From positions 56,634,421-56,698,420 of the forward strand of contig CM060978.1 of NCBI GenBank assembly GCA_030765065.1: DNA of 64,000 bases. Reading direction: 5' to 3'. The notes below the pieces were generated by a model that saw nothing but the letters and a program-made list of their open reading frames with translations, had not been told where the DNA came from and searched no databases. The DNA comes from Deroplatys truncata (Eukaryota > Arthropoda > Insecta > Mantodea > Mantidae). Shown here one piece after another: positions 579-63,875 of this stretch (positions are counted from its first letter, which is position 1; every line of letters starts with the position of its first letter). The position numbers and the translations under genes were made by a program.

Positions 579-584
579 TGAAAA

Positions 585-1402
585 ATCTAATGTGTTACAC
601 ACACATGACTTTCTCTACACTTGTACAAACTATTTTTACAAACGCTTATTCTCCATATGCTTCATGTCAATTGAGATGTTAATCTTATTGCTAATTTTCT
701 TGGTAGGCTTTATGGGATAATCAAATATTTTAAGAGCTGGTTGCTATGTGGAGTATTCCATTCTCGTTGCATTACCAGGACAAAAAAATGAATAACGAAT
801 TTCCATTTGAGAACAAGTATTAGTATTGGAAAATTTAAGGGTATAACAAGCAATATCTCGAAAATGATTCACTCACCAAAAAGAAAATATATGACATAAA
901 TTGTTTATTTTAATGCGATCTACATTTTTTGTGTAGTAAGATTTTGTCTATCTCTTATGGTTAACCAGTTATGGAAAAGTCGTTCACAATGAAGAATACT
1001 TTTGGAGACATTTCAGAAAATTCAAGATATACATTTCATTTGTCATGAAAATATCTAAAGCATATGATATTTTAATAAAAATGGTTAGAGCCATTTTTGA
1101 GAAAATTAAAATTTTGGAAAAATGTTCCATGTAAACGGTAATCTGGGGTGGGGGGATTTTCTTGAAAACCTTCGTGTCGCATCTCTGGAAGATACTGAAC
1201 CTAAATACTAAGTTTGGTGTTTATCCGACTGTTCGTTTCTGAGTTATGCTCTACACAGACACACACATGGACATGTTTCCAAAAATTCTCTTTTTTGGAT
1301 TCAGGAGGCCTCAAAAAATGTATTTCGGGTGAAATCTCGGTATCAAATTTTTGGGTGGAATACAATACTTCCCCTACTCACTATACGTAGTAGAGAAAGT
1401 AA
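585..1402 (+). mobile_element. Family A repeat (Helentron-like), full-length
   Basis: Begins TCTAATGTGTTACAC then the subterminal ACTTTCTCTAC, and ends TACTATACGTAGTAGAGAAA. It has a short ACACAC tract at 1258-1266. It has no coding capacity. It faces an inverted copy at 1643-2450. Confidence 0.75.
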
Positions 1403-1642
1403 AAAATCACTGAGAGAAACGACTTGAAAACAACATAGCCAGACAAGTCATATGTTATACAGCGATAGTCCAATGAAGTGCTGGGCGTCCCAAAACGAGC
1501 TGGTTGCAGCAATTTTTGAGGCTGGAACAAGCATTGATACCTAATCCCTAACAACAGGCGACGACGGTAATTTAAACCCATTTTACTAAAAACTATTGCA
1601 TACACCTGGTATGTAAAATCTTTAGTAGACTCTCCCATATAA

Positions 1643-2450
1643 TTAATTTCTCTACTACGTATAGTAAGTAGGGGAAGTATTTCATTCCACCCAAAAATTC
1701 GATACCGAGATTTCACCGGAAATACATGTTTTGAGGCCTCCTGAATCCAGAAAGGAAACATGTCCGTGTGTGTGTGTCTGTGTGTCTTTGTTTGTGTCTG
1801 TGAACAGCATAACTCAGAAACGAACAGTCGGATAAAATCCAAACTTGGTATTTAGTTTTATTATCTTTTAAACATGCGACACAAGGATTTTCAAGTAAAT
1901 CCCTCCACCCCAGACTATCCGTTACTTGGAACAATTTTCGAAAAAGTTGATTTTCTGAAAAATGACTAACGATTTTGATTAAAATATCATATGTTTAAGG
2001 TATCTTCATGGCAAATAAAATGTATATCTTGAATTTTCTGGGAATGTCTCCGAAATTATTCTTCATTGTGAACGACTTTGGCATGACTGGTTAACCATAA
2101 GAGATAGACAAAATTTTACTACACAAAAAATGTAGATCGCGTTAAAATACACAATTTATGTCATATACATTTTGTGTTGTTGAGTGAACCATTTTCGAGA
2201 TATTGCTTGTTATGCACTTAAATTTTCCAATACCTAATCTGTGGCAAAGAGAATGGAATGCGCCACATAGCAACCAGCTCTTAAAAGATTTGACTATCGC
2301 TTAAAGTCTACCATATTCCCCTTGCACCTACAAGAAAATTAGCAATAAGATTAACATCTCGATTAATTTTAAGCATATGGAGAATAACCCTTTGTAAAAA
2401 TAGTTTGTACAAGAGTAGAGAAAGTCACGTGAGTGCAACACAACATATTT
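1643..2450 (-). mobile_element. Family A repeat, full-length, inverted
   Basis: Mirror image of the 585-1402 copy: it starts TTTCTCTACTACGTATAGTA and ends AGTAGAGAAAGTCACGTGAG. The microsatellite slot holds an interrupted GT run (1767-1801). With the previous copy it forms an inverted pair around a 240 bp spacer. Confidence 0.75.
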
Positions 2451-3307
2451 TTTTTAATTCGTCCGCTTATTATGCGCACTTGGAACATAAATAGCTATTT
2501 TTTTGGGACATCAAAACATTTATTTTTTGTGAAATGTTCGTTTTGAAATTTGTATTAGAATGAAACATCTTTAAGGGGTTTTAAAATTGTAAAAGGCGAA
2601 ATTTATTTAATTGGTCCAAGGGCATAAAACTATAGAATATAATTCGCCATTGTTCCCTAAGAAGGTGGGTGTTGTAAAAATTAAGGGCTGAATAAAAGGA
2701 AGCACTAGATTCTCCTTCCATATTCTGTTTCCAGACTATGACATGTCTAACCTCTGCAAACAAGCGAATAGTGAAATACAATTTCTGCAAATGACACCCC
2801 CCCTGCTCCTAGGCAGGAGAAAGCTTCTGACGTTCGTTTCCAATTTTGTGTATTCGCTTTAGAGGTATATGGCATTAGCCGCCACTGCTTGCCAAACCGC
2901 GCTTATCTCGCAGTGCAGCCAACTTCTCGAGTATTTTGATGTTTTGAATGAAAGGGAAATTCATGTAGTATTTCTTGCGTATATGTTGCAGTGCATGAAG
3001 CCATGTTAACCCTCGCCGCCTTGTCTTCAACTTTCTCTTTCCGACTTTCACGCTCCCTGCACTTTCTCCAAAGTACGGGCTAATTACGTGATTTGCTCTC
3101 CCTGTGTTGACTCGACTGGAATGAGGTTGTTACACCTGGGAAGATATATCCCGATAGTCGGGCTCTACATTACAATTGAGTGTCTTATGAAATTGGAGTT
3201 ATTTAAACCATAAGTAAGTTTAGAGATCTTCTTTTAGCAAAATTAATATCTTTGCTTAAAACAAACTGGAATCACAATCCGATAATTATAATTTCACCGG
3301 CTCCTCT
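2451..3307. other. No recognised feature
   Basis: Single-copy looking sequence within the window. It contains a C8 run near 2795 and a small CCTAGG-centred inverted repeat (CTGCTCCTAGGCAG, 2804-2817). No open frame with recognisable homology was seen. Confidence 0.4.
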
Positions 3308-4650: not shown

Positions 4651-4656
4651 AGAAAC

Positions 4657-5503
4657 TTTGATGTATTCAATCACATGACTTTCTCTACTCTTGTACAAAC
4701 TGTTTTTACTACTGCATATTCTCTATCGACTACATGTTAACTGAGATAAACATTTGCAGAAACCATCTTATTGCTAATTTTCTTGTAGGTGCAAGGGGAA
4801 TATGGTAGGCTTTAAGCGATAGTCAAATCTTTTAAGAGCTGGTTGCTATGTGGAGCATTCCACTCTCTTTATATATCCAGGACATTAAAAAAAACGAATA
4901 ATGAACATTTGAGAACAAGTATAAGTATTTGAAAATTCAAACAAATAGCCAGGAATATCTCAGAAATGGTTCACTCGAAAAAAAATGTATATGACATAAA
5001 TTCTGTGCTTCAACGAGATATAATTTTTTTTTGTGCAGTGAAATATTGTCTACCTTTATGGGTTACCAGTTGTACGAAAGTGATTCACAATTAAGGGAAC
5101 TTTTGGAGACAGAAAATTCAAGATATACGTTTCATTACCATGAAAATATCTTAAACATATTAGATTTTAATTAAAATCCTTAGAGCCATTTTTTAAAAAA
5201 AATGTAAGTTTTCAAAAAATGTTCCATGTAAAGGGTAGTTTGGTGAGAGAGGATTTTCCTTAAAATCTGTGTGTCACACCCTTGTAAGATACTAAACTCA
5301 AGTACCGACTTTGGTATTTATCCAACTGTTCGTTTCTGAGTTATGCTGTTCACAAACAGACTCACACACGGACATGTTTCCAAAAATGCTTTATTTGGAT
5401 TCACGGCAGCTCAAAACATGTATTTCCTGTGAAATCTCGGTATCAAATTTTTGGATGGAATGTAATACTTCCCCTACTTACTATACGTAGTAGAGTAGGT
5501 AAT
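4657..5503 (+). mobile_element. Family A repeat, near full-length
   Basis: Begins CTTTGATGTATTCAATCACA and ends TACTATACGTAGTAGAGTAG. All internal landmarks are present (GCTGGTTGCTATGTGGAGCA, CCATGTAAAGGGTA, CGGACATGTTTCC). Confidence 0.7.
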
Positions 5504-5506
5504 AAA

Positions 5507-8178: not shown

Positions 8179-8180
8179 TA

Positions 8181-8945: not shown

Positions 8946-8967
8946 CGTTTGCTCATTTTTTATTTTT

Positions 8968-10408: not shown

Positions 10409-10906
10409 TTACTTTTTCTACTACGTATAGTAAGTAGGCGAAGTATTGCATTCCACCCAATTTCATTCGATACCAAGATTTCACCGGAAATATATGTTTT
10501 GAGGCCCCTGAATCCAAAATAAGCATTTTTAGAAAAAGCTCCGTGTGTGTGCGTATGTTTGGATGTGTGACTATGAACAGAATAACTCAAAAACTAAAAG
10601 CAGGATGAATACCAAACTTTTCAAGAAAATCCCTCCACCCCAGACTAACCTTTAGTTGGAACATTTTTCAAACTTTTCATTTTTTCAAACATGGCTCTAA
10701 CGATTTTTATTAAAATACAACAGGTTTAAGATATTTTGATGGAAAATGAAATGTATATCTTGAGTTTTCTGGGAGTGTCTGCAAAAGTCCTCCCCTTTCT
10801 GAATGGTTTTTCATAAATGGTAAACCATAAGAGAGAGACAAAATTTTACTACACAAAAAATGTATATCTCGTTAAAACACACAATTTTTGTCCTAAATAT
10901 TTTTAC
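10409..10906 (-). mobile_element. Family A tandem array, unit 2
   Basis: Starts ACTTTTTCTACTACGTATAG and ends at CACAATTTTTGTCCTAAATA. The break point within the element is the same as in unit 1. Confidence 0.65.
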
Positions 10907-11672
10907 TTTATCTACTCGTATAGTAAGTAGGGGAAGTATTGTATTCCACTCAAAAATTCGATACCGACATTTCACCGGAAATATATGTTTTGAGCCTCCT
11001 GAATCCAAAAACAGCATTTTTAGAAACATGTCTGTGTGTATGTCTGTGTGTTGTGAACAGCATAACTCAGAAACGAACAGTCGGACAAACACCAAACTTG
11101 GTATTTAGGTTCAGTAAATTTCATAAATTGCGAAACGAAGGTTTTCAAGAAATTCTCCCACCCCTGATTACGCTTTACATGGAACATTTTTCGAAAATTT
11201 TAATTTTCTTAAAAATGACTCTAACGATTTTGATTAGAATATCATACTTTTTTTTGTTGAGTGAACCATTTTCGAGATATTGCTTGTTATTGCATTAAAT
11301 TTTGTCTGAAATGGGAATTCGTTATTCATTTTTCTCTCTTGGATATACAAAGAGTATTAATCTGTGGCAAAAAGAATGGTGCTGCACCTAGCAACCAGCT
11401 ATTAAGAGTTATGTGAATGCTTAAAGACTACTTTATTTCTATATTGCCCTTGCAAATACAAAACAAGGGGATCATAGTACACCTTAAGCGATAGTCAAAT
11501 ATATTTTAGAACTGGTCGCTATGTGTAAAATGCAATTCTTTTGCATGTCAAAAGGTCGTTTTTGCAAACGTTTATCTCGATTAATATGAAATAGATGGAG
11601 AGTAAGAGTTTGTAAAAATAGTTTGTACAGGAGTAGAGAAAGTCATGTGAGTGTAACACATCAGAATTTTTT
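10907..11672 (-). mobile_element. Family A tandem array, unit 3, runs to the 5' end
   Basis: Starts ACTTTATCTACTCGTATAG and reaches AGTAGAGAAAGTCATGTGAG and ACACATCAGA. The middle contains the third-subfamily variant (CAAAGAGTATTAATCTGTGG, TGCTGCACCTAGCAACCAG). Confidence 0.65.
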
Positions 11673-11975
11673 TGTCGAGTGAACCATTTCCGAGTTATTC
11701 TTTGTTATTTGTTTGAATTTGCCAATAGTTATACTTTTTCTCAAATGGGAATTCATTATTCGTTTTTTTATGCACTGGACATGCAAAGAGAATGGAATGC
11801 TCCACATAGCAACCGGCTCTTAAAAGATTTGACTATCGCTTAAAGCTTACCGTATTCCCCTTGCATCTACAAGAAAATTAGTCGTAACATGGTTACTGCA
11901 AAAGTTTATCTCGATTAACATGAAGTAAGTTTGTAAAAATAGTTAGTATAAGAGTAGAAAAAGTAATGTAGGTTT
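11673..11975 (-). repeat. Family A tandem array, unit 4, 5' part only
   Basis: Picks up at GTGAACCATTTCCGAGTTAT and runs to AGAGTAGAAAAAGTAATGTA. It lacks the 3' half. Confidence 0.6.
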
Positions 11976-12695
11976 AAGACAGATATTTATTTTAGCGTTA
12001 TTCCTCAAAATTTAATACCTTTGATACGTTATATTTGTGTAAATAGTATTTAAAAAACTACGTATCTACTGACTAAACTACATTTACTAGCCTCAATTAA
12101 CTTTTCATCCTCAGATGGCTTACATTTACACCTACAATAATCGTTTTACAAAATGTTCAAACCTACAAAAAAACAACAAAAGAAACAAAAACAGAAAACA
12201 AAACAGAAATTCCTGTGCATATACTCCTCATCTTTAATCGTCCTTGCTCTTCTCTCAACCTCTTTCGTTATACTTAGATACAGGACGAATGGAGGAAATC
12301 GAATCAATAGTCAGATGCTTACAAATAATAGGGAATTTCTCGTAAACATTAATCACCAAAATAAAAGACATAAGAACACAGTCTTTCGCCTGGCGTACGA
12401 AAAGCAACACTCCTCCAGGGTTAACCACGCCAAAGGACTAAGTAACTAGGGGACATCCATCTTTTTTCGGACTTGGTTAAATTTTCTTTATCATTTTTTC
12501 AAAATTCAAAATTTTAAACTTAGACTGGACGTCTCGGTACGGTGCGCCCTTATTAAGTTATACTCGTATAAAGGAGTGGGTTATTACATTATCACATCAT
12601 ATGTAAAATCATTTACTAACGAATTAACTATTTGAATCCATACGTATCAGTTATTTAAGGAACAAGGAACATTTGAATTCTTAACTTTTCTTATA
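11976..12695. other. No recognised feature
   Basis: AT-rich, with a low-complexity A-rich run (12164-12210). A 98-codon open frame at 12153-12449 begins with a Lys/Gln run caused by this tract and has no other support. Confidence 0.4.
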
Positions 12696-13914
12696 CACTA
12701 CGTGATCAAAAGTATCCGGACACCGGGCTGAAAATGACGTACAAGTTCGGTAATGCTGGAAGTCAATATGGTGTTGGCCCGCCCTTAGCCTTAACGACAG
12801 CGTTCACTCTCGCAGGCATAATTTCAATCAGGTGCTGGAAGGTTTCTTGGGGAATGGCAGCCCATTCTTCAAGGAGTGCGGAACTGAGGAGAGGTATCGA
12901 TGTAGGTCGGCGAGTCGGCACGAAGTCGGCGTTCCAAAACATCCCAAAGGTGTTCTATAGGATTCAGATCAGGACTGTGCAGGCCAGTCCATTACAGGGA
13001 TGTTATTGTCATGTAACCACTCCGCCACAGCCCGTGCAGTATGAACAGATGCTCGATCGTGTTGAAAGATGCAATCGCCATCCCCAAATTGCCCTTCAAC
13101 AGTGGGAAGCAAGAAGATGCTTAAAATATCAATGTAGGTCTGCGCTGTGATCGTGGCACGCAAAACAAGGGGTGCAAGCCCCCTCCAGGAAAAACTCGAC
13201 CACACCATAACACCACCACCTCCGAATTTCACTGTTGGCACTACACACGCTGGCAGATGACGTTCACCAGGCATTCGCCATACCCACGCCCTGCCATCGG
13301 ATCGCCACGTTGTGTACCGTGATTCGTCACTCCACACAACGTTTTGCCACTGTTCAATCGTGTAATGTTGACGCTCCTTACACCAAGCGAGGCGACGTTA
13401 GGCATTTTCCTGCGTGATATATGGCTTATGATTAGCCCCTCGACCATGGAATCCAAGGTTTCTCACCACACGCCTAACTGTCATAGTACTTGGAGTGGTT
13501 CCTGATGCAGTTTGGAATTCCTGTGTGATGGTCTGGATAGATGTCTGCCTATTACCCTTTACGACCCTCTTCAAATGTCGGCAGTCTCTGTCAGTCAACA
13601 GACGAGGACGGTTTGTGCGCTTTTGTGCTGCACATGCCCCTTCACGTTTCCACTTCACTGTCACTTCAAGAAACATTGGACCTAGGGGTGTTTAGGAGTG
13701 TGGAAATCTCGCGTACAGACTTCTGACACAAGTGACATCCAATCACCTGACCACGTTCGAAGTCCGTTAGTTCTACGGAGCGTCCCATTCTGCTGATTCA
13801 CGATGTCTAATGACTACTGAGGTCGCGGTACCAGGCAGTAGATGACATCACAATGCACCTAAGATGAAAAACGTATGTTTGTGGGGGTGTCCGGATACTT
13901 TTGATCACATACTG
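12696..13914. mobile_element. Tc1 transposon, copy 1
   Basis: Left end CACTACGTGATCAAAAGTAT and right end ATACTTTTGATCACATACTG are inverted repeats of about 30 bp sharing TCCGGACACC, flanked by TA on both sides (12694-12695, 13915-13916). At 1219 bp it has the size of an autonomous Tc1. Confidence 0.92.
12763..13788 (-). pseudogene. Tc1 transposase, broken
   Basis: The minus-strand span of about 1026 bp fits a 340-residue Tc1 transposase. It is recognisable in pieces: ATG at 13788; helix-turn-helix with [41 protein letters not shown] (first catalytic D); [18 protein letters not shown] (second D); MDWPAQS before the third acidic motif, which lies in another frame. Frameshifts separate the blocks. 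It would have cut and pasted its own element; it is now inactive. Confidence 0.88.
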
Positions 13915-14702: not shown

Positions 14703-15549
14703 AAAATGTGTTACACTCACATGACTTTCTCTACTCTCGTACAAACTATTTTTACAAACGCTTATTCTCCATATGCTTCATGTTAATCGAGATGTTAATC
14801 TTATTGCTAATTTTTCTTGTAGATGCAAGGGGAATGTGGAAGACTTTAAGCTAAAGTCAAATATTTTAAGAGTTGGTTGTTATGTGGCGCATTCGATTCT
14901 CTTTGTATGTTCAGTTCGTAAAAAAAAATGAATAACGAATTCCCATTTGAGAAAAAGTCTTGGAACGTTTAAGGGAATAACAAGCAATATCTCGAAAATG
15001 GTTCACTCAACAAAAAAATGTATATGACATACATTGTGTATTTTAACGCGATCTACATTTTTTGTGTAGAAAAAATTTGTCTATCTCTTATGGTTTACCA
15101 GTTATGCAAAAGTAGTTTACAATGAAGAATACTTTTGGAGACATTCCCAGAAAATTCGAGATATACATTTTATTTGTCATGAGAATATCTTAAACATATA
15201 ATATTTTAATCAAAATCGTTAGAGCCATTTTTGAGAAAATTAAAAATTTTGAAAAATGTTTCATGTAAAGGGTAATCTGTGGTGAGGGATTTTCTTGAAA
15301 ACCTTCGTGGCGCATCTTTGAAAAATACTGAACCTAAATACGAAGTTTGGTGTTTATCCGACTATTCATTTCTGAGTGTTCACAGACACACACACGCACA
15401 CACACAGACACACACACGGACATGTTTCCAAAAATGATTTTTTTTACTCAGGGGGTCTCAAAACATATATTTCCGGTGAAATCTCGGTATCGAATTTTTT
15501 GGTGGAATACAATACTTCCCCTACTTACTATACGTAATAGAGAAAGTAA
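14703..15549 (+). mobile_element. Family A repeat, full-length
   Basis: ATGTGTTACACTCACATGAC to TACTATACGTAATAGAGAAA, with a compound (CA)n/(GACA) tract at 15383-15419. Confidence 0.75.
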
Positions 15550-15559
15550 TAACGAAATG

Positions 15560-22182: not shown

Positions 22183-22298
22183 AAATAATCTGTGTTGCAC
22201 TCACATTATTTTCTCTACTCTTGTACAAACTATGTTTACAATCGCTTATTTTCCATCTACTTCATGTTACATTTGAAGAAAACATTTTATTGTTAATT
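22183..22298 (+). repeat. Family A 5'-end fragment abutting an inverted copy
   Basis: TCTGTGTTGCACTCACATTA, CTCTACTCTTGTACAAAC, ending TTGTTAATTTT exactly where the next copy's TACTTTCTCTACTACG starts. Confidence 0.6.
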
Positions 22299-23147
22299 TT
22301 TACTTTCTCTACTACGTGTAGTAAGTGGGGGAAGTGTTGTATTCCACCCAAAAATTCGATACCGAGATTTCACCGGAAATACATGTTTTGAGACCCCCCG
22401 AATCCAAAAAAAGCACTTTTGGAAACATGTCCGTGTGTGTGACTGTGTGTCTGTGAACAGCATAACTCAGAAACGAACAGTCGGATAAACACCAAACTTG
22501 GCTTTAGGTTTAGTATCCTCCAGAGATGCGACACGAAGGTTTTCAAGAAAATCTTTCACCCCAAATTACCCTTTATATGGAACATTTTTCGAAAATTTTA
22601 ATTTTCTCAAAAATGGCTCTAACGATTTTGATTATAATATCATATGTTTAAGATATTTCATAACAAATGAAATATATAACTCGAATTTTATGGGAATGTC
22701 TCCAAAAGTATTCTTCATTGTGAACGACTTTTGCATAACTGGTAAACCATAAGAGATAGACAAAATTGTACTACACTAAGAATGTAGATCGAGTTAAAAT
22801 ACACAATTTATGTCATATACATGTTTTGTTGTTGAGTGAATTATTTTCGAGATATTGCTGGTTATTCCCTTAAATTTTCCAATACTTATACTTTTTCTCA
22901 AATTCGTTATTCATTTTTTGTCCTGGTAATGCAAAGAGAATGGAATACTCCACATAGCAACCAGCTTTTAAAATATTTGACTATCGCTTAAAGCCTACCA
23001 ATTCCCCTAGCATCTACAAGAAAATTAGCAATAAGATTATCATCTCGATATCTCGATTAACATGAAGCACTTGGAGCATAAGCGTTTGTAAAAATAGTTT
23101 GTACAAGAGTAGAGAAAGTCATGTGAGGGTAAGACATAAGATTTTTT
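22299..23147 (-). mobile_element. Family A repeat, full-length
   Basis: TACTTTCTCTACTACGTGTA to AGAGAAAGTCATGTGAGGGT and GACATAAGATTTTTTT. A short GTGTGTGTGAC tract occupies the microsatellite slot. Confidence 0.75.
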
Positions 23148-24955: not shown

Positions 24956-25497
24956 TATGGTTTGTAATAATAAGCATTTGTTTGTATTTTAAATCCTGAA
25001 GTGATTCAGAAGCATAACCCTGGGTAACTTATAACAGCTACGAATCGCCATGACAGCCCCTCTGCTTTCACACTCCAGGGGGATGTTGCTGCGTTACGTT
25101 ATGATGAGGAGGTTTCCGGCAGAGAAAATATATTTTTCTTATAAATATATTTGAAAGAATGCATCTTGAAACTTTGCGCATTTATACACTACTAAATATG
25201 TATCGCACTTTTAACTATAACACAAAATCAAATTATAAAAGTCCAAATTTCCGTAATAAATAACTAAGAGTAAAATCTCAATGACGTTGAAGAAAAGAAA
25301 GAACGAGGCCGAAATAAATGTCTGAAAAATCTTGCACAGGAATCAGGAATTTCGCTAGGATTGCCACTGAACTTTAAAAATTAAAACCGCATAAGGTAAC
25401 TGTATTTCAAAAACTACGTGATAATGTGAGTGGAGTTAATTTCTGCTATGTAGTGTTGGATAATGTTACTGATCGCTCTAATGACCCCGTTTAGCTT
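24956..25497. other. No recognised feature
   Basis: Mixed composition, including a GC-richer block (25040-25130) without identifiable homology. Confidence 0.35.
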
Positions 25498-26328
25498 ATT
25501 ACTTTCTCTACTACGTATAGTAAGTAGGGGAAGTATTGTATTCCACCCAAAATTCGATACCGAGATTTAACCGGAAATACATGTTTTGAGACCCCCTGGA
25601 TCCAAAAAAAAACATTTTTGGAAACATGTCCGTGTGTGTTTCTGTGTACAGCATACCTCAGAAACGAACAGTAGGATAAACACCAAACTTGGTATTTAGA
25701 TTCAGTATCTTCCAGAGATGCGACATGAAGGTTTTCAAGAAAATCCCCCATCCCAGATTACCTTTTACATGGAACATTTTTCTACAATTTTAAGTTTCTC
25801 AAAAATGGCTCTAACGATTTTGATTAAAATATCATATGTTTAAGATATTTTCATGACAAATGAAATGTATATCTAGAATTTTCTGGGAATGTATCCAAAA
25901 GTATTCTTCATTGTGAACGAATTTTGCATAACTGGTAAACCATAAGAGATAGATAAAACTTTACTACCCAAAAATATAGATCGCGTTAAAATACACAATT
26001 TATGTTATATACATTTTTGTTGTTGATTGAACCATTTTCGAGATATTGCTAGTTATTCCATTAAATTTTCCAATACATATACTTTTTCTCATATTTGTTA
26101 TTCATTTTTAGTTGTCCTGGTAATGCAAAGAGAATGGAATTCTCCACATAGCAGCCAGCTCTTAAAACATTTAACTATAGCTTAAAGCCTAACAATTTCC
26201 CTTGCATCTACAAGAAAATAAACAATAAGATTAACACTCCGATATCTCGATTAACATGAATAAGCGTTTGTAAAGATAGTTTGTACAAGAGTAGAGAAAG
26301 ACATGTGAGTGTAACAGATCAGATTTTT
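25498..26328 (-). mobile_element. Family A repeat, full-length
   Basis: TACTTTCTCTACTACGTATA to AGTAGAGAAAGACATGTGAG and AACAGATCAGATTTTTTT. The microsatellite slot contains only GTGTGTGTTTCTGTG. Confidence 0.78.
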
Positions 26329-29064
26329 TTATACGGATGGTTTTATTTACATGAAGAATTAATTAGTATTAAAGCAAAATTTCTTAAAATGTATGAGGGA
26401 TGTATGGCGGACCAAGGACAACATTTCCAAAATCTTCTATGCTATTATAATTTGCGTGAAAGGTCTAGGATCTTGAATTTAAGGGGCTATGAATAACGAC
26501 TCCGACGGCAAATAGAGTGCTTCCCGATGCCAAGAAAATTCCCATTAGGCCTGCCATACATCCAAACGAAGGCTCTGTATATCAAATGAAAACAGGAAAT
26601 TACAGTTTATAAGACTGTACAATAAACAATAAATATGATATGACTGTTGAATAGAGATTTATTATTTATGTATATCACTCGTTGCTGGAATTTGATTAGT
26701 TTATTCCAGAAACCCGGTAACCCAAAGTTTTAGTCAAAATTGGTGTTTTGTGGAATGGTATCTTGACTGTAAATCTAGCTTTTGGAACAGATAACCATAA
26801 ACTGCAACTTATTGTGGGTTAAAAATAGTTCTCAATATCCGATTTAGAGCAGAGAGCGACGAGTGATTAGCAACAATATAAAATAAAATTGTAGGCTTTC
26901 ACAGCAGTTGTCAATAATAACTTGACTGTCTTCCGGCGACCGTGTCACGTTTGATAAAATTGCTGACGTTTCGCCTTCATGTTGAGGGCTTCTTCTGGAC
27001 ACTGCCTGCGTTCATAAGAATCAGTACTGGCTGAATATGTTTATAAAACAGGTCACCATATTGACTTTGACAACAACATTGAGACTTTAACTCTCAAGAG
27101 ATATTAGTATGAAGAAAACTATAGACATAATATCCCACATAAAGCACGAGTGAAATTGAAGACTTCAGAAACTATAATGGTGGAACGCTTCTACCAAAAT
27201 CTGTTTGTGAAGGGTTTATGTCCGGGTAAATGCGGTTTGAAAATCTATGATGAATATTGTGACGGTTATAGTTCTACTGTACAAGATGGTAATACATTTA
27301 GTTTTTATAAAGATAGGGTGTTCAGAATAAAATTTGTTTAAAAGGAAAAAAGAAACTGACTTTAGAATTCTTGCGAATGATTTCCGGATGCTTATTTAAT
27401 CAGGCGTTCTGTCGCACGATTTTTAGGAGTATGGTCATCTCAAGATCACGGGAGTTCGTCACGTGGGGAGATTATGCAAATCATGCTGACACCGCTTACG
27501 TCAGTTCTGGTTGAAGCACGCGGTCAGCATACTCTTCGGGTAGTTAAACTTAGAATTTTTTAACTACTCGCTCTCTATCACTTATCTAGCACGACTCTGC
27601 GACGGTAGGCTATTTAAATTTATTTTGTGCTAGTTTTCAACATCGACATAGACCCTAGGTAACACGATGATGGAACGCCGAAATGTCTCCCCCTACCAGA
27701 TAAAGAAAGGTGTTTGTCTCTTTCTTTCTTGTAATATAGTCTATTTTATTTATTAGAAATATTAAAGGTTCTCATGAACAAGAATTACAGGTCTAATAGA
27801 CTCACCCTTCACCACCTCCCTAGCTCTCCGCAACCTATAACTCTCTCAATGTACTCCCTGAGCTACCGTTTCACCCGTTCCTTCCTTCCTTATTTAGAGA
27901 AGACACCACAACATCAAAACAACAATAAAATTGCTTAATGTACGTCTCGGGCAAACATTGATTGAGGTTAGCGAAATAAAACGAAGATAATTAAATCAAA
28001 TATAGATCGGGTTTGTTTTCTTTTGTTATAAAACCTATTACTATCATAACATATCGACATTGACTAAACGGTATACATTTAAATGCACATTTAGTTTAAG
28101 TGTACATCTATTTTCATTGCAGGAAACAAATCATGTTAGTATTTTTAAAATATAATTTTAAAACAAATAATAATCTTTTTGTGATACTAAAGGCAATATT
28201 TAATTCAGATAAGTGTTCAGTAATATTCGTGCTTTTTCCAACTAAAATCTTCCTTCGTTTCAAAGATAAAATATTTTTCTTGGTTTTCTCAAAGGTTGAA
28301 AATGTGCACATAGAGGGTTTTTGAAATAAACGATTCAATAACTTCATGTATTTCGCTCTTCATTTACGTTATCCTGTGGTGAGATTTATTTGTACAGAGA
28401 AAGAGAATGTGGCCTTTCAAATCTCCATGTTACCATTTAAAGGTATTAACTTTTGCTGAACAGTGTACACCATTTGCCTTGTGCAGATCAGATATTCTAT
28501 ACACTAATTATCGGAAAATATTGGAGAGGAGTAAAGTACAACAAAGGACTGATAAGTAATCCTCTCAGAGAACCTGGGACGAGTAAAATCGAAATAATGG
28601 TAAATTAGGTACATAATGAGGCACGTTGAATTCGCAAGAGGATTAACTCCCCATTACCCGGACATGGTTTAAGTTACTGCAGCATACCACCTGTCCAAAC
28701 ACACACAAGATGCTTACGTACTTCCAGTTGCGTGTAGAAATGTGTTTTGATTTGCAAAACTTAAAACAAGGGAAATAAAGTCAAAAGGATTATTTGAAAC
28801 ACATTCAATAAAGCTTTAAAGAGCGTTTTAGGCATTTTCACTACTGCAAAACACCTATTACCGTCGCTTCATCAGTTAGTCAGGCCGTGCGTATGCATGA
28901 AACAATAGCCAACCACTGCAAGTAAGGAGTGAGATTTTATATATAAGGGTTTGAGGTTCTATCGACATATTTCAAATTAGGTTAAGAGTCACTATTTAGT
29001 TCTTCCTTGAGCGTAACATTGCAATAAATCATATGCGAAGCATCCTCAGGAGCCATCGAAGAAT
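26329..29064. other. No recognised gene
   Basis: Longest stretch without dominant repeats. 26840-27660 is compositionally distinct: GCTGACGTTTCGCCTTCATG near 26960, and an imperfect inverted pair AGAGAGCGACGAGTGATTAG (26850) and TTAACTACTCGCTCTCTATC (27560) that could mark an unclassified transposon. Open frames at 27150-27341 and 28100-28347 are short, AT-driven and unsupported. Confidence 0.35.
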
Positions 29065-30335
29065 GCCTAACACAGGACTCCTCTTCTCTCTTTCGGTCGC
29101 TCACTACTGCTGAACACAGTACTCCTCTTCTCTCTTTCGGTCGCTCACTGGGGTTTCGAACACAGGATTCCTCTTCCCTTTTCCTGTCGCTTACTGGAAT
29201 GTCGAGCACAGCAGTCCTCTTCTTTCTTTCGGTCGGTCACTGGAGTCTGGAACACAGGACTCCTGTTCTCTCTTTCGTTCATTCACTAATGCCGAACACA
29301 GTACTTCTATTTGCTCTTCACTCGCTCACTGAAGCCTCGAACACAGGACCCTCTCCTCTCTTTCGGTCGCTCACTGGAGTATCGAACACAGGCCTCCTCT
29401 TCTCTCTTCCAATCGCTCACTGGAGTCCCGAACACATGACTCTTCTTCTTTCTTACAGTCTCGAACACGGGACTCATTTCTCTTTCGGCCGCTCACCGAA
29501 GTCTCGAACACAGGATTTCCCTTCTCTTTCCAGTCATCCACTGGAATGTTGAACACAGGACTCTTCTTCTCACTTCAAATCGCTCACTGGAGTTCCCGAA
29601 CTCAGGACTCTTCTTCTTTCTTACAGTCTCGAACGCGGTTCTCATCTCTCTTTCGCCGCTCACTGAAATCTCGAACACAGGATTTCCCTTCTCTCTTCCA
29701 GTCATCCACTGGAATGTTGAACACAGGACTCTTCTTCTCACTGCCAGTCGCTCACTGGAGTCTCGAACACAGGACTCCTCTTCTCTCTTCATTCCCTCAC
29801 TGAAGTCTTGAACACAGGAATCATCTTCTTTCGGTCGGTAACTGGAGTCTGGAACACAGGACTCCTGTTCTATCTTTCGTTCATTCACTAATGCCGAACA
29901 CAGTACTCCTACCTATTCGCTCTTCACTCGCTCACTGAAGTCTCGAACAGAGGCCTCCTCTTCTCTCTTCCAATCGCTCACTGGAGCCCCGAACACAGGA
30001 CTCTTCTTCTTTCTTCCAGTCTCGAACACGGGACTCATCTATTCTCTTTCGGTCACTCACTGGAGTCTCGAACACAGGATTTCCCTTCTCTCTTCCAGTC
30101 ATTCACTGGAATTTGAACACAGGACTCTTCTTCTCACTTCCAGTCGCTCACTGGAGTCTCGAACACAGGACTCCTCTTCTCTCTTCATTCCCTCTGAAGT
30201 CGTAAACATAGGAGTCCCCTTCTTTCTTTCGGTCGCTCACTGGAGTCTCGAACACAAAACTCATCTTCTCTCTTTCGGTCGCTCACTGGTGTGGAAAACT
30301 CCCCTTCTCTCCCTCTATCGTACGCTCATAGAAAT
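29065..30335. repeat. Minisatellite array, about 46 bp units
   Basis: About 27 diverged units of the type GGTCGCTCACTGGAGTCTCG followed by AACACAGGACTCCTCTTCTC and TCTTTC. The strand shown is pyrimidine-rich. Each unit carries GAGTC and GACTC flanking a 10-base loop, so single units can fold. A higher-order pattern is visible: the variant with TCTTCTTCTTTCTTACAG recurs at 29438, 29606 and (as TTCCAG) 29999. Since 46 is not a multiple of three, the open frames crossing it (29199-29552 plus, 29493-29888 minus) shift phase from unit to unit and are chance. Confidence 0.92.
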
Positions 30336-36436: not shown

Positions 36437-36715
36437 AAAAATCTGATGTGTTACACTCACATGACTTTCTCTACTCTTGTACAAAATACTTTTACAAACG
36501 CTTATTCTCCATCTACTTCATGTTAATCCAGATAAACATTTGCAGACTCTATCTTATTGCTAATTTTCTTGTAGATGTAAGGAGAAAATAGATTTACAAG
36601 GGCACTATAGAAAAACAGTAGCCTTTAAGCAGATACATATCTCTTAATAGCTGGTTGCTAGGTGCAGCACCATTCCCTTTGCCACAGATTATAACTCTTT
36701 GCGTATCCAAGACAA
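36437..36715 (+). repeat. Family A 5' fragment, third subfamily
   Basis: TCTGATGTGTTACACTCACA, then AGGGCACTATAGAAAAACAG and GGTGCAGCACCATTCCCTTT. The same variant appears inverted near 11340-11480 and 49230-49380. Confidence 0.6.
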
Positions 36716-37601
36716 AAAATCTGATGTGTTACACTCACATGACTTTCTCTACTCTTGTACAAACTATTTTTACAAACGTTTATTCTCCATATGCTTCATG
36801 TTAATCGAGATGTCAATCTTATTGCAAATTTTCTTGTAGATGCAAGGGGAACATGGTAGGTTATAAGCGATAGTCAAATCTTTTAAGCGCTGGTTGCTAT
36901 GTGGCGCATTCTATTCTGTTTGCATATCCAGGACATAAAAATTGAATAACGAATTTGAGAAAAAGTATAAGTATTGGAAAATTTAAGGGAATAACAAGCA
37001 ATATCTCGAAAACGGTTCACTCAACAAAAGAAATGTATATGACATAAGTAGTGTATTTTAACGCGATCTACATTTTGTGTGTAGTAAAATTTTGTCTATC
37101 TCTTATGGTTTACCAGTTATGCAAAAGTCGTTCACAATGAAGAATACTTTTGGAGACATTCCCAGAACATTCGAGATATACATTTCATTTCTCATGACAT
37201 TATCTTAAACATATGATATTTTCATCAAAATCGTTAGAGCCATTTTTGAGAAAATTAAAATTTTCGAAAAATTTTCCATGTAAAGGGTAGTCTGGGGTGG
37301 GGGGATTTTCTTGAAAACCTTCGTGTCGCATCTCTGGAAGATACTGAACCTAAATACCAAGTTTGGTGCTTATCCGACTGTTCGTTGTTGAGTTATGCTG
37401 TTCACAGACACACACACAGACACACACACACACACAGACACACACACACACACAGACACACACACGGACATGTTTCCAAAAATGCTTTTTTTGGATTCAG
37501 GAGGTCTCAAAACATGTATTTCCGGTGAAATCTCGGTATCGAATTTTTGGGTGGAATGCAATACTTCCCCTACTTACTATACGTAGTAGAGAAAGTAAAA
37601 A
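36716..37601 (+). mobile_element. Family A reference copy and first unit of a tandem array
   Basis: Complete: 5' TCTGATGTGTTACACTC with hairpin arms ATGTG/CACAT; subterminal ACTTTCTCTACT; 3' TACTATACGTAGTAGAGAAA with hairpin arms TACTA/TAGTA and terminal AGTAGAGAAAGT, the inverse of the subterminal motif. A compound CA microsatellite lies at 37403-37464, just before CGGACATGTTTCC. There is no open frame of its own. The structure resembles Helentron-derived DINE-1-type elements; that class is inferred. Confidence 0.75.
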
Positions 37602-38069
37602 TTTAAGGGAATAACAAGCAATATCTCGAAAACGGTTCACTCAACAAAAGAAATGTATATGACATAAGTTGTGTATTTTAATGCGATCTACATTTTGTGT
37701 GTAGTAAAATTTTGTCTATCTCTTATGGTTTACCAGTTATGCAAAAGTCGTTCACAATGAAGAATACTTTTGGAGACATTCCCAGAAAATTTGAGATATA
37801 CATTTCATTTCTCATGACATTATCTTAAACATATGATATTTTCATCAAAATCGTTAGAGCCATTTTTGAGAAAATTAAAATTTTCGAAAAATCTTCCATG
37901 TAAAGGGTAGTCTGGGGTGGGGGGATTTTCTTGAAAACCTTCGTGTCGCATCTCTGGAAGATACTGAACCTAAATACCAAGTTTGGTGCTTATCCGACTG
38001 TTCGTTTTTGAGTTATGCTGTTCACAGACACACACACAGACACACACACACAGACACACACACACACAG

Positions 38070-38101
<32 letters not shown>

Positions 38102-38240
38102 ACACACGGACATGTTTCCAAAAATGCTTTTTTTGGATTCAGGAGGTCTCAAAACATGTATTTCCGGTGAAATTTCGGTATCGAATTTTTGGGTGGAATG
38201 CAATACTTCCCCTACTTACTATACGTAGTAGAGAAAGTAA
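37602..38240 (+). mobile_element. Family A tandem array, second unit, 5'-truncated
   Basis: Begins AATTTAAGGGAATAACAAGC immediately after the first unit's AGAGAAAGTAAA and runs to the 3' end. Nearly identical to 36960-37601. The CA tract is longer (38022-38107). Confidence 0.85.
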
Positions 38241-38668
38241 AAATTTAAGGGAATAACAAGCAATATCTCGAAAATGGTTCACTCAACAAAAAAAATGTAT
38301 ATGACATAAATTGTGTATTTTAACGCGATCTACCTTTTTTGTGCAGTAAAATATTGTCTCTCTCTTATGGTTTACCAGTTATGCAAAAGTCGTTCACAAT
38401 AAAGAATACTTTTGGAGACATTCCCAGGAAATTCAAGATATACATTTTATTTGTCATAAAAATACCTTAAACATATGGTATTTTATTCAAAATCGTTAGA
38501 GCGATTTTTGAGAAAATTAAAATTTTCGAAAAATCTTCCATGTAAAGGGTACTCTGGGGTGGGGGGATTTTCTTGAAAACCTTCGTGTCGCATCCTTGGA
38601 AGATACTGAACCTAAATACCAAGTTTGGTGTTTATCCGACTGTTCGTTTCTGAGTTATGATGTTCACA

Positions 38669-38718
<50 letters not shown>

Positions 38719-38873
38719 GACAGACACACACACACGGACATGTTTCCAAAAATGCCTTTTTTGGATTCAGGGGGAATCAAAACATATATTTCCGTTGAAA
38801 TCTGGGTATTGAATTTTTGGGTGGAATACAATGCTTCCCCTGCTTACTATACGTAGTAGAGAAAGTAAAAATC
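38241..38873 (+). mobile_element. Family A tandem array, third unit, 5'-truncated
   Basis: Same entry point as unit 2, with more substitutions relative to units 1 and 2. CA/GACA tract at 38664-38734. Confidence 0.85.
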
Positions 38874-39053
38874 AAGGCTCTATATGATTATACCAAAGGG
38901 TATTCAAGATTGGAGAAATTGAAGACCCTACGGACTCTTCATTTATATCCATGTATAGCAAACTTGAAATGTTTACCTCAAGTTAATTACGCACAGGGTG
39001 TTCATTTGCGAGAGTCTACTGCATGAAATTCTGAGAGCAATACAGGGCGGAAA

Positions 39054-39874
39054 AAATCTGCTGTGTTACACTCACATGAGTTTCTCTATTCTTGCACAAA
39101 CTATTTTTACAAACGCTTATTCTCCGTATACTTCATGTTAATCGAGATGTTTATCTTGTTGCTAATTTTCTTGTAGATGCAAGGGTAAATGGTAGGCTTT
39201 AAGCTATAGTCAAATATTTTAAGAGCTGGTTGCTATGTGGAGTATTCCATTCTCTTTGTATTACCAGGACAAAAAAAATAAATAAGGAATGAATTTGAGA
39301 AAAAGTATAAGTATTGGAAGATTTAAGGGAATAACAAGCAATATCTCGAAAATGGTTCACCCCCCAAAAAACATATTTGTGTATTTTAACGCGATCTATA
39401 TTTTTTGTGTAGTAAAACTTTGTCTATCTCTTATGGTTTACCAGTTATGCAAAAGTCGTTCACAATGAAGAATACTTTTGGAGATATTCCCAGAAAATTC
39501 GAGATATACATTTTATTTGTCATGAAAATATCTTAAACATATGATATTTTAATCAAAATCGTTAGAGCCATTTTTGAGAAAATTAAAATTTTCGAAAAAT
39601 GTTCCATGTAAAGGATAATCTGGGGGGAGGATTTTCTTGAAAACCTTCCTGTCGCATCTCTGGAAGATACTGAACCTAAATACCAAATTTGGTGTTTATG
39701 CGACTGTTCGTTTCTGAGTTATGCTGTTCACAGACACACACGCACGTGTATCCTAAAATGCTTTTTTTGGATTCAGAGGGCCTCAAAACATGTATTTCCG
39801 GTGAAATCTAGGTATAAAATTTTGGGTGGAACACAATACTTCTCCTACTTACTATACGTAGTAGAGAAAGTAAA
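39054..39874 (+). mobile_element. Family A repeat, full-length
   Basis: TCTGCTGTGTTACACTCACA to TACTATACGTAGTAGAGAAA. The microsatellite is short (CACACACGCACG). Confidence 0.75.
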
Positions 39875-40442
39875 AATCAAACAGTTATTCCTATTTAAGA
39901 AAATGCATAGGTATATGGAAAATTCAAACAAATAAATAGCAATATATCGGAAATTGTTTATTGGGCAAAAATCGTATGTAATAAATTGTGGGTTTCAACG
40001 AGATCTACATTTTTTGTGTAGTAAAATTTTGTCTATCTCTTACGATTTAGCCAAACTATTTAGAATGAAGAGAATTTTTGGGGACATTTCTATCTTAAAT
40101 ATATATTCTAATGAATATCGTTAGAGCCATTTCTGAGAAAATCGACATTTTCGAAAAGTGTTTCATGTATAGTTTAATCTGGGGTAGAGGAATTTTCTTG
40201 AAAATCTTCGTGTCGGATCTTTGAAGGATACTGAACCTAAATGCCAGGTTTGGTATTTATCCGACTTTTGGTTTTGAGTTATGCTGTTCACAAACACATA
40301 TACACGGACCTTTTTCTAAAAATGCTTTTTTTAGGATGCAGGGAGCCTCAAAACGTGTATTTCCGGTGAAATCTCAGTATTGAATTTTTGGGTGGAATGC
40401 AGTACTTCCGCAATTTAATATACAGTAGAGAAAGTAAAAAGG
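39875..40442 (+). mobile_element. Family A repeat, 5'-truncated, joined to the previous copy
   Basis: Starts after GTAAAAATCAAACAG with TAAGAAAATGCATAGGTATA and ends TATACAGTAGAGAAAGTAAA. It belongs to a diverged subfamily. Confidence 0.6.
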
Positions 40443-41114: not shown

Positions 41115-41897
41115 AAACAAATCTCATGTGTTACACTCACATGAATTTCTCTACTCTTTTACAAACTATTTTTACAAACGCTTATCGCCATATGCTTCAT
41201 TTTAATCGAGATGTTAATCTTATCGCTAATTTTCTTGTAGATGCAAGGGGAATTGGTAGGCTTTAAGGTGTAGTCAAATATTTTAAGAGCTTAATAACGA
41301 ATTCCCATTTGAGAAAATGTATAAGTATTGGAACATTTAAGGGAATAACAAGCAATATCTCGAAAATGGTTCACTTAACAAAAAAAATGTATATGACATA
41401 AATTGTGTATTCTAACGCGATCTATATTTTTTTCTGTAGTAGAATTTTGTCTATCTCTTATGGTTTACCAGCTATGCAAAAGTCGTTCACAATGAAGAAT
41501 ACTTTTGGAGACATTCCTAGAAAATTCGAGATAAACATTTCATTTATCATGAAAATATCTAAAACATATGATATTTTAATCAAAATGGTTACAGTAATTT
41601 TTGAGAAAATTAAAATTTTTGAAAAATGTTCCATGTAAAGGGTAATCTGAGGTGGGGGGATTTCCTTGAAAACCTTCGTGTTGCATCTCTGGAAGATACT
41701 GAACCTAAGTACCAAGTTTGGTGTTTATCCGACTGTTCGTTTCTGAGTTATGCTGCTCACAGACACACACGGACATGTTTCCAAAAATGCTTTTTTTTGG
41801 GTTCAGGGAGCCTCAAAACATATGTTTTCGGTGAAATCTCGGTATCGAATTTTTGGGTGGAATCCAATACTTCTCTACGTAGTAGAGAAAGTAAAAA
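41115..41897 (+). mobile_element. Family A repeat, near full-length
   Basis: TCTCATGTGTTACACTCACA to CTACGTAGTAGAGAAAGTAA. It lacks about 60 bp around the CTATGTGGAGC block and part of the 3' hairpin (TACTTCTCTACGTAG). Confidence 0.72.
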
Positions 41898-42291
41898 TTT
41901 CACGATGTGCCCAGAGCTTGGTGTTTGAATGTGAGAGTACATATACGTATGTGTAACACCATATGAGGTGTTCATCGGCTATTTAATAAGTAATTTGCTC
42001 ATTAATAAGAATTCAGGATTGCCGCTTGACGCAAACCTGAGCACACGTGTTAAGTCATTTAGTTCAATGAAGTTTTGTCTACAATCGGTACTATATGATA
42101 CCAATTGGCGCTGCAAGATTAAACAAAATTTTATTTTCATTTTATTTATGCACTTTAAAGATACGTTAGAATTAAATTATATTATATTGTTGCATTATTC
42201 ATAATAAGCATGTGTATAAATATGCCCACCTTGATAGACGATTGATTTAAGGTTCTCTTAGGCCGGTATTCTACATGGAATGATCCATCAT
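41898..42291. other. No recognised feature
   Basis: A 78-codon frame at 41968-42204 is unsupported. Confidence 0.35.
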
Positions 42292-43108
42292 TTTTACTTT
42301 CTCTACTACGTATAGTAAGTAGCGGGAGTATTGTATTCCACCCAAAAAATTTATACCGAGATTTCACCGTAAATATATGTTTTGAGACCATTTGAATCCA
42401 AAAAAGAAGCATTGTGTGTCTGTGAACAGCATAACTCAGAAACGAACAGTCGGATAAACACCAAACTTGATATTTAGGTTCAGTATCTTCCAGAGATGCG
42501 ACACGAAGGTTTTCAATAAAATCCCCCAACGCAGATTACCATTTACATGAAACATTTTTCGAAAATTTTAATTTTCTCAAAACTGGCTCAACAGATATTG
42601 ATTAAAATATCATTCGTTTAAGATTTTTTATGACAGATGAAATGTATATCTCGAATTTTGTGGGAATGACTCCACAAGTGTTCTTCATTGTGAACGACTT
42701 TTGCATAACTGGTAAACCATAAGAGATAGACAAAATTTTACTACAGAAAATGTACATCTCGTAAAAATACGCAACTTGAGTGAATCATTTTCGAGATATT
42801 GCTTGTTATTCCCTTAAATTTTTCAATACTTATACTTTTTCTCAAATGGTAATTCGTTATTCATTTTTTTGGTCCTGATATTGCAAAGAGAATGGAATAC
42901 TGCACATAGCAACCAGTCTTAAAATACTTAACTATCGCTTAAAGCCTACAAATTTCGCTTGCATCTACATGCAAATTAGCAATAAGATTAACATCTCGAT
43001 ATCTTGTTTAACATGAAGAATATGGAGAATAAGCGTTTTTAAAAACGGTTTGTACAAGAGTAGAGAAGGTCATGTGAGTGTAACACATCAGATTTTTTAA
43101 TATTATTT
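42292..43108 (-). mobile_element. Family A repeat, full-length, without microsatellite
   Basis: TACTTTCTCTACTACGTATA to AGAGAAGGTCATGTGAGTGT and ACACATCAGATTTTTT. The slot has collapsed to GAAGCATTGTGTGTCTG. Confidence 0.75.
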
Positions 43109-62505: not shown

Positions 62506-63098
62506 TGTGAAGGGTAGTTTGGGTGTGGAATCCTTGGAAATTGCTGAAGTTGAATACGAAGTTTGCGCCTTTAGAAGCTCCGGGAGGAAGGGATAAGGCA
62601 AGAGAGTACGAAGATTGGCCATATCTGACGGCGACAGGTGCAGCTTCGATGCCTCACCCCCCCCCCCCCCCCCGCTATCCACATGGACAGGTTTGGGCAG
62701 AAGGTTTGATGCGAGGAAAGAAAATAGTTCTCTCCGTGAAGCACATCCATCGACCATCATGCCAGGACATGCAAGTTGAAAGGAAATGAGAGAGAGAACA
62801 ATTTTATATCTGGTAGTACATTACTCACCTCAGCAACTGCCTACAACACGGAAAAACCACGAAAAACCAAAGGTCAGATCCAATTGGAATAGAACCCTGA
62901 ACTTCCAGAATGCGAGCCGTATACCACGTGATAATATTGTTTCTAAACCCATGAGCAGAAGCTGTTTGTTTTAACATGCTAGAGACCCTGAAACGGGAAG
63001 CAGTAGATGTCGCACTCTTTAGATAAAGAGTTGTTTACCAACAACTGTTACGTCACGCACACCATACCTACAGCAAATGGTAGTGTTTATGGCATTAT
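62506..63098. other. No recognised gene; contains a C17 run
   Basis: A C17 homopolymer lies at 62657-62673. Frames on both strands across it are chance. The start (GAAGGGTAGTTTGGGTGTGG) may be a family A scrap. Confidence 0.4.
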
Positions 63099-63875
63099 TA
63101 CTTTCTCTACTACGTATAGTAAGTAGGGGAAGTATTGTATTCCACCCAAAAATTCGATACCGAGATTTCACCGGAAATACATGTTTTCAGACCCCCTAAA
63201 CCCCAAAAAAGCTTTTATGGAAACATTTCCGCGTGTGCCTGTGTGTGTTGTGAACAGCATAACTCAGAAACAAACAGTCGCATAAACAACACCCCAGATT
63301 ACCCTTTACATGGAACATTTTTAGAAAAGTTTAATTTTGTCAAAATTGGCTCCAACGATTTTGATTATAGTATTATATGTTTAAGATATTTTCATGACAA
63401 ATAAAATGTATATCTCGAATTTTATGGAAATGTCTCCAAAAGTATTTCATTGTGAACGACTTTTGCATAACTGGTAAACCATAAGAGATAGACAAAATTT
63501 TACTGTACAAAAAATGTAGATCGCGTTAAAATACACAATTTATGTCATATACATGTTTTTGTTGGGTGAACCATTTTCGAGATATTGCTTGTTATTCCCT
63601 TAAATGATCTAATACATTTTATCAAATGGGAGTTCTTATTCATTTTTTTATGTCCTGGAAATGCAAACAGAATGAAATACTCCACATAGCAACCACCTCT
63701 TAAAATATTTGACTATCGCTTAAATACTACCAATTCCCCTTGCATCTACACGAAAATTAGCAATAAGATTAACATCTCGATTAACATGAAGCATATGGAG
63801 AATAAGCGTTTGTAAAAATTGTTTGTACAAGAGTAGAGAATGTCATGTGAGTGTAACACATCAGATATTTTTAAT
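63099..63875 (-). mobile_element. Family A repeat, full-length
   Basis: TACTTTCTCTACTACGTATA to GAGAATGTCATGTGAGTGTA and ACACATCAGATATTTTT. The microsatellite slot holds GTGTGCCTGTGTGTG. Confidence 0.78.

Follow-up and report, generated by a model that had tools for sequence, protein, structure and literature searches.

Related elements and the locus studied

The closest described relatives of the element reported here are the Helentron-associated interspersed elements (HINEs) of a predatory mite, HINE-Mo, and their partner, Helentron-Mo (Thomas, Vadnagara and Pritham 2014, PMC4067079). In the mite elements, subterminal inverted repeats of 12-15 bp lie 2-4 nt from the 5' end and 38-60 bp from the end on the 3' side, a 3' palindrome stands between the repeat and the end, some copies carry microsatellites, targets are T-rich without duplication, and the partner encodes a Rep, a PIF1 helicase and a fused endonuclease. 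Each of these features has a counterpart in family A, an element of the mantis Deroplatys truncata that is described here from a stretch of 64,000 nt (the window; C4:56634421-56698420, contig CM060978.1), with one copy near its middle as the index copy (Table 1). Family A is almost certainly a HINE of the DINE-1 group and a passenger, itself non-autonomous, of a Helentron that the same genome contains. It differs from HINE-Mo in that its 3' repeat is nearer to the end (22 nt), in its heavy self-insertion at one internal T-run and in a central part that is not collinear with the partner compared; the mite HINEs are reported as simple deletion derivatives.

Three other systems are also similar. 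The Drosophila DINE-1/INE-1 elements (PMC4067079) have a short microsatellite, a 3' stem-loop, a preference for TT and a 5' palindrome one arm of which lies within the subterminal repeat, and family A resembles them in these structural features. Cg_HINE of the Pacific oyster (PMC7492417) comprises non-autonomous Helentrons at T-rich sites without duplication and has ties to satellites. However, the oyster tandem repeats are inside the element, whereas family A repeats whole 5' or 3' modules, and a 3.41-kb satellite of the mantis carries a whole family A copy. The FoHeli composites of Fusarium oxysporum (PMC5148889) have several 5' termini and a single 3' terminus, as do some of the composites described below. 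They were explained by self-insertion, a start at the leftmost 5' end and a stop at the first 3' end, a rule proposed from a number of elements, as against tens of thousands of junctions here. The duplicated 5' pieces in Fusarium are typically shorter than 200 bp, whereas family A modules are about 625-690 bp long, and in the mantis one composite of a coding Helentron was traced to three sites.

Abundance of family A and its Helentron partner

The subterminal repeat ACTTTCTCTACT, with at most one mismatch, occurs 45 times in the window, where 0.35 occurrences are expected and none of 100 shuffles reaches 45. Family A matches make up 32.6% of the window (20,853 bp in 69 BLAST pieces, partly microsatellite), and nine copies align in one piece over 800 nt or more with 76.9-100% identity, the query itself counted. 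A DNA search of the whole genome (4.29 Gb, 818 contigs) gave 2,721 first-look candidates; the 40 that were scored, all near full length, include the window copy itself, and the remaining 39 have 95-97% identity. The repeat count and the coverage confirm that the family proposed in a reading made earlier from the letters of the window (the sequence-only reading) is real. In the viral contigs, no exact copy of a 34-base pattern of the 3' end was found and no relative of the Rep piece was confirmed.

The evidence for a partner comes from the Rep domain. Helitron_like_N (PF14214) has 152 matches in the genome, some of them in open frames of 2,100-2,543 amino acids. Ten of these Rep loci were picked by hand to span both score groups, with 20 kb around each, and in six of them the Rep region lies between family A-type 5' and 3' ends that are about 10 kb apart. 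Four of the six Helentrons have a single open frame of more than 2,300 amino acids, and the frames of L017 and L027 are broken into shorter ones; the coding part, about 7 kb long, is 97.5-99.1% identical between pairs of the six. The open reading frame (ORF) of L009, the one protein scanned against Pfam, has 2,324 amino acids and combines Helitron_like_N (97.8 bits) and a PIF1-like helicase (100 bits) with DUF6570, Herpes_teg_N and a C-terminal endonuclease domain (Exo_endo_phos_2, PF14529; 28.1 bits, cut-off 27.4). The endonuclease motifs GDFN and SDHKP are present near the C-terminus in all six partner loci. The Helentron mark, an S instead of an L between the G and P of ExQxRG-P-HxH, is present as RGSPH (RVEFQMRGSPHEH) in five of the six; RVEFQMRGSPHEH was not found in L027, with its broken frame.

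The ends are shared with family A. Positions 1-689 of family A are 87-92% identical to the 5' end of the six Helentrons (in L009, 85% to position 727), and the last 37 nt (850-886) match the Helentron 3' end at 94.6%. A Helentron with both family A ends, which the sequence-only reading had named as the thing to look for, therefore exists in six of the ten Rep loci examined, and this partner, together with empty sites that lack any duplication of non-T letters, supports the Helentron/DINE-1-like class that it had proposed. We consider family A a very abundant non-coding element that, judged from these sequences, is most likely moved by the Helentron sharing its ends. The window itself contains no Helentron coding sequence detectable by tblastn with the L009 ORF at 1e-3. 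No published account of family A was found in searches that were not aimed at the host lineage and did not cover Repbase or Dfam. Family A is a further HINE of a known type, and its self-insertion system is what adds interest.

Some other features of the Rep loci deserve mention. The Herpes_teg_N-like peptidase region of the L009 ORF is N-terminal, and the same ORF (L009L010, 6130-13101) contains a run of charged repeats of 21 residues, such as EDEEYKKSERKRNKEYMEQAR. The length of this run may vary between Helentron copies, because many shifted self-alignments fall in it. The remaining four loci (L019-L026) carry a different Rep type, with family A copies merely nearby, and no GDFN or SDHKP motif was found in them on the strand examined. 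This second type (L021L022, L025L026, L019L020 and L023L024) has a higher PF14214 score and shorter frames, up to 734 amino acids.

Anatomy and ends

The index copy is read on the minus strand because the published HINE anatomy fits in that orientation. It starts with TTTTT-ACTTTCTCTACT (TTWTT-ACTTTCTCTACT in the family), and the 5' palindrome TACTA CGTA TAGTA shares one arm with the repeat. The other end is AGTAGAGAAAGT-C-ATGTG-AGTGTAA-CACAT-CAGA, followed by a T-run. The subterminal inverted repeat is 12 bp long, with 5 nt outside it at the 5' end and 22 nt between it and CAGA on the 3' side. The sequence-only reading had described a 5' hairpin (ATGTG/CACAT) and a 3' hairpin (TACTA/TAGTA); both are present, but the ends were swapped: ATGTG/CACAT belongs to the 3' end and TACTA/TAGTA to the 5' end. 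The ATGTG/CACAT pair is conserved: exactly ATGTG-7-CACAT stands behind 23 of the 99 exact AGAGAAAGT places in the window and ten joined loci, and the next commonest word pairs occur there six times each. Folding the two short hairpins as single strands gave z-scores of -0.95 and -2.25, too weak to argue from. The internal microsatellite had been called fixed, which is nearly right: in 11 of the 14 listed copies a TG-rich run begins at a distance of 122-146 nt from the true 5' end.

The termini were scored at 49 5' ends and 47 3' ends in the window and the ten joined loci. At the 5' ends T is found in 46 at -1 and likewise in 46 at -4, in 45 at -2 and in 42 at -5, and T or A is present at -3 in 47 (34 and 13, respectively), but conservation drops at -6, where only 13 have T. 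The five terminal letters are TTTTT in 26 ends, TTATT in 11 and others in 12. Since conservation stops at -5, we prefer TTWTTACTTTC as the 5' terminus and 36720-37601 as the body of the index copy. At the 3' side T is conserved from +1 to +6 in 39-45 ends. Eight of the 11 TTATT ends have a 3' end in range, one of them with an altered CAGA, and none of the eight right flanks begins with TTATT. The simplest reading of these letters is that TTWTT would be part of the element and the 3' Ts the T-run of the target, although the opposite split is possible. The termini TTWTT...CAGA are not the 5' TC and 3' CTRR of canonical Helitrons, and such canonical ends were rejected.

Several other 3' ends in the window (62495, 49985, 49487, 43530, 31005 and 35564) have a similar hairpin-CAGA-like end behind different upstream sequence, and for this reason several HINE families may use the same machinery.

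Target sites

A usable uninterrupted counterpart was obtained for five of the 11 insertions tried (one of them divergent); one gave only other junctions and five gave none. All five empty sites place the insertion at a T-run, with no non-T letters duplicated or lost. The composite Helentron L015 is an example, with a filled site CATTTT[...]TTTTTTTATGTCC and uninterrupted copies reading CATTTTTTTATGTCC. Constant target-site duplications, which the sequence-only reading had named as a result that would speak against its class, did not appear at these sites. Its expectation of insertion between two Ts without duplication holds as to the duplication; the point of insertion, however, is better read as the 5' edge of the T-run, with the element probably bringing its own TTWTT.

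Family A itself is a frequent neighbor. It adjoins 16 of the 49 5' ends, 13 in the same orientation and three inverted. The 13 stop at the T-runs 661-667, 624-625 or 571-573, or at the 3' end, 886; of the three inverted ends, two lie at the A-run 110-116, which reads as a T-run on the opposite strand, and one could not be mapped cleanly. Family A also adjoins 18 of 58 3' ends, and 15 of these start at, or next to, an A- or T-run or an element end.

Self-insertion at the internal T-run

One internal site was followed in detail. Seven of the 16 self-flanked 5' ends are at the 661 site, three of them belonging to one composite, and 19 of the 40 scored genome copies, counted from the table of copies, abut another family A segment at some position. 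Genome-wide, the intact site (661-665) has 75,009 exact matches, left junctions (the site joined to a new 5' end) have 17,522 and right junctions (the remainder of the site behind a 3' end) have 12,691, and reversed-pattern controls for all three gave 0. These are counts of junctions, not of events, and their ratios are rough because the patterns differ in length (20, 28 and 25 fixed bases). By these counts, family A often lands inside its own copies and one internal T-run is used often.

The spacing of junctions was followed on contig C1, using the first 100 left junctions listed (to 31.1 Mb) and the 69 right junctions over the same stretch. A right junction on the same strand follows 831-912 bp downstream, the spacing of one nested copy, for 14 of the 100; one is found at 1-16 kb for 21, and none within 16 kb for 65. 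Two opposite-strand pairs are less than 1 kb apart. Ten of the 65 unpaired left junctions were sampled: four are nested pairs with a mutated right junction, and six have the end of a 5' module before the copy and no family A after its 3' end, which would give two 5' ends and one 3' end. Of ten right junctions without an exact left partner, one is nested and two are complex; the other seven are taken up below. Both samples include only about 35-50 nt of the extra module, the far end of which is inferred. Composites with extra 5' modules only were considered and rejected, given seven of these ten right junctions and the 12,691 right junctions genome-wide.

Alternatively, the tandem partial copies could come from a single rolling-circle run that ended prematurely on the 3' side. 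The literature includes tandem Helitrons whose inner copies are 3'-truncated, and window positions 37598-38871 have such a look. Nested insertion, on the other hand, accounts for junctions that pair around one whole copy (14 of 100), for the mutated partner in four of ten sampled unpaired junctions and for the uninterrupted counterparts that several junctions have. A single run is therefore a possible origin, but we doubt it.

Two arrangements on C1 involve the same sites. Near the start of the contig lies a satellite of units of about 3,408 bp, in which 31 intact-site matches lie in register (C1:20305-122587); in the stretch C1:23600-27200 (L050) each unit has one full-length family A copy and about 2.5 kb of other DNA. 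Left-junction doublets 443-451 bp apart also recur as inverted pairs about 4-9 kb apart: 13833732/13834175 with 13842615/13843058, 22028068/22028519 with 22032784/22033235, and 26123579/26124030 with 26132477/26132928. They look as if a larger element or palindrome bore family A modules at both ends.

Composites that appear to have moved

In L009, L015 and L017 an extra 5' module (positions 1-663) lies directly ahead of the Helentron. The three outer modules are 99.5-99.7% identical to each other but only 93.0-94.9% identical to seven other modules compared, among them the Helentron's own 5' end. Alignments of the composites cross the junction, and that of L009 with L017 stops at the outer 5' end and at the 3' end. 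The flanks of the three differ in the 60 nt shown on each side, and the L015 composite sits inside another family A copy, for which the empty site is known. From these alignments one composite, an extra 5' module plus a whole Helentron, is present at three sites and appears to have moved as a unit. Presumably a family A copy first received a Helentron; the composite would then have moved by its outer 5' end and the Helentron 3' end, leaving the 3' half of the host copy behind, and would later have landed again in the internal site of a family A copy (L015).

By analogy, this history fits the rule of Fusarium Helitrons, outermost 5' end and first 3' end, that was noted above. The rule is reportedly the work of Chellapan et al. 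It would not be exclusive, since junctions pointing to extra 3' modules also occur; either later 3' ends can also be used, or recombination acts.

It could also be argued that composites arose in place, by recombination between nested repeats or by segmental duplication, rather than being moved as units. Recombination inside a nested pair can give both composite types, both kinds of junction were seen (six of ten and seven of ten sampled unpaired), some junctions are in recurring blocks, and intact sites occur in a satellite. Yet the flanks of L009, L015 and L017 differ on both sides of nearly identical outer modules, and L015 has its own empty site within a family A copy. An origin in place is unlikely for these reasons, although it would account for some of what is seen.

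Proposed mechanism and its weak points

The Helitron literature (PMC5876387 and PMC5148889) suggests the following scheme. The Helentron protein would nick at the 5' end, at TTWTT and the subterminal repeat, and peel off one strand by rolling-circle replication until it halts at the hairpin-CAGA end. The copy would then be inserted at the 5' edge of a T-run, with the Ts on the strand of the element. A run of this kind is part of family A itself (661-665), so new copies would frequently land in older ones. Transposition of a nested pair from the outer 5' end to the inner 3' end would yield composites with extra 5' modules, and read-through past the inner 3' end, or recombination in place, would yield those with extra 3' modules. 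We suggest, tentatively and as one possibility among others, that the internal T-run is a landing pad carried by the element itself, that insertion into its own copies accounts for part of the spread of the family, that composites re-enter transposition, and that the Helentron gains passenger 5' ends and modular arrays build up, which would be a self-feeding cycle and not passive nesting.

Several observations weigh against parts of this account. The distance of 22 nt between the 3' repeat and CAGA is shorter than in the mite HINEs, and the endonuclease score of L009 is barely over the cut-off. Positions 728-849 of family A are not collinear with L009, although the ends are shared, and by this alignment family A does not look like a simple deletion product of L009. 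With T-runs at both edges, the exact cut points are ambiguous and a duplication of Ts alone is possible, an ambiguity likewise present in PMC4067079; no TTATT copy had a readable empty site. The base ahead of the TTTTT or TTATT edge is A in 25 of 37 ends and G or C in six each. Insertion between A and T, the canonical Helitron target, would therefore be common, although with the ends as we prefer to read them it is not always so, G or C being ahead in 12 of the 37. One of the 16 self-flanked 5' ends and three of the 18 3' ends (near 124, 483 and 520) were not mapped to a T- or A-run. Finally, the seven remaining right junctions of the sample of ten have no family A junction ahead of the 5' end, pointing to one 5' end and two 3' ends, a pattern that is not expected from the rule of stopping at the first 3' end by itself.

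Two other assignments of the group were weighed. Family A and its relatives might belong with Helitron2, which lacks the endonuclease, or with canonical Helitrons. RGLLH or RGLPH, the second Rep type, occurs in two other loci (L021L022 and L025L026; no motif was found in the other two of the four), and the frequent A ahead of the T-run would agree with the canonical target. However, the endonuclease motifs in all six partner loci and the Pfam match in the one protein scanned, the ends other than TC...CTRR and the Helentron S in the Rep motif of five of the six partners make this very improbable. Equally improbable is that family A is a miniature inverted-repeat transposable element that belongs to a cut-and-paste (DDE) transposon and duplicates a short A/T target, TAA or TTATT for example. 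This reading was rejected on the flanks although no search aimed at a DDE partner was made: TAA-like letters do flank some copies on both sides at first sight, but TTATT at a 5' edge does not recur at the 3' edge (8 of 11 ends pairable), and the ends are asymmetric and common to the Rep/helicase element.

The HINE reading thus stands, and the genome offers much to work with. Tandem-repeat-carrying Helentrons are called still poorly understood in the oyster HINE paper (PMC7492417). A single genome here combines predicted Helentron frames of more than 2,300 amino acids, an abundant passenger, empty sites and tens of thousands of nested junctions, so that the proposal of a start at the outermost 5' end and a stop at the first or a later 3' end becomes statistically testable. 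The genome further illustrates one way in which elements of this kind exchange their 5' regions and become part of satellite-like arrays.

The index locus and other features of the window

The features are collected in Table 1. The poly-A at 36714-36719 is best read as the T-run of the target and, with the GTCTTGG that follows, is taken for the decayed right junction of an older family A copy. The sequence-only reading had reported tandem copies; they are present, but as partial modules that cover only positions 263-886 of the index-copy query, not as whole copies. No family A match was found in the 80 nt outside the second extra module. From its sequence, the index copy reads as part of a composite, with two 5' modules ahead and the decayed right half of an older copy behind.

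Table 1. Features of the index locus, further family A copies in the window and the partner loci (window coordinates)
Feature	Position	Strand	Remarks
Family A HINE copy, full length (index copy)	36720..37601	-	true 5' end 37601; 3' end CAGA at 36720
5' terminal TTTTT (TTWTT in family)	37597..37601	-	49 5' ends; conservation stops at -5
5' subterminal inverted repeat ACTTTCTCTACT	37585..37596	-	
5' palindrome TACTACGTATAGTA (TACTA/TAGTA)	37575..37588	-	one arm inside subterminal repeat, as drawn for DINE-1
Internal CA/TG microsatellite	37403..37470	.	
Internal T-run, self-insertion site	36937..36941	-	intact here; true positions 661-665
3' subterminal inverted repeat AGTAGAGAAAGT	36742..36753	-	
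3' hairpin ATGTG-AGTGTAA-CACAT	36724..36740	-	
Target T-run abutting 3' end	36714..36719	-	then GTCTTGG
Older family A copy, remnant	36438..36713	-	36438-36589 aligns to 3' end; rest inferred from junction letters
Extra 5' module	37598..38243	-	true positions 1-624; 95.4% identical
Second extra 5' module	38240..38871	-	true positions 1-624; 91.8% identical
Family A copy, full length	582..1405	-	
Family A copy, full length	1643..2451	+	
Family A copy, full length	4653..5505	-	76.9% identical
Family A copy, full length	14706..15552	-	
Family A copy, full length	22297..23145	+	nested inverted in another copy; one divergent empty site
Family A copy, full length	25496..26327	+	TTATT type
Family A copy, full length	39053..39876	-	
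Family A copy, full length	41119..41897	-	
Family A copy	42291..43096	+	two alignments
Family A copy	63095..63869	+	three alignments; TTATT type
Six Helentron loci			L009/10, L011/12, L013/14, L015/16, L017/18, L027/28

Two further observations are recorded here. A tandem array of 46 bp at 29062-30287 of the window has open frames of repeated SLEHRTP-like residues and no overlapping family A match. Elsewhere in the genome there are many nuclear-looking copies of mitochondrial COX1, with clusters on contig C16; the matches have many in-frame TGA codons, many have further stops, and the best one reads through with the invertebrate mitochondrial code.
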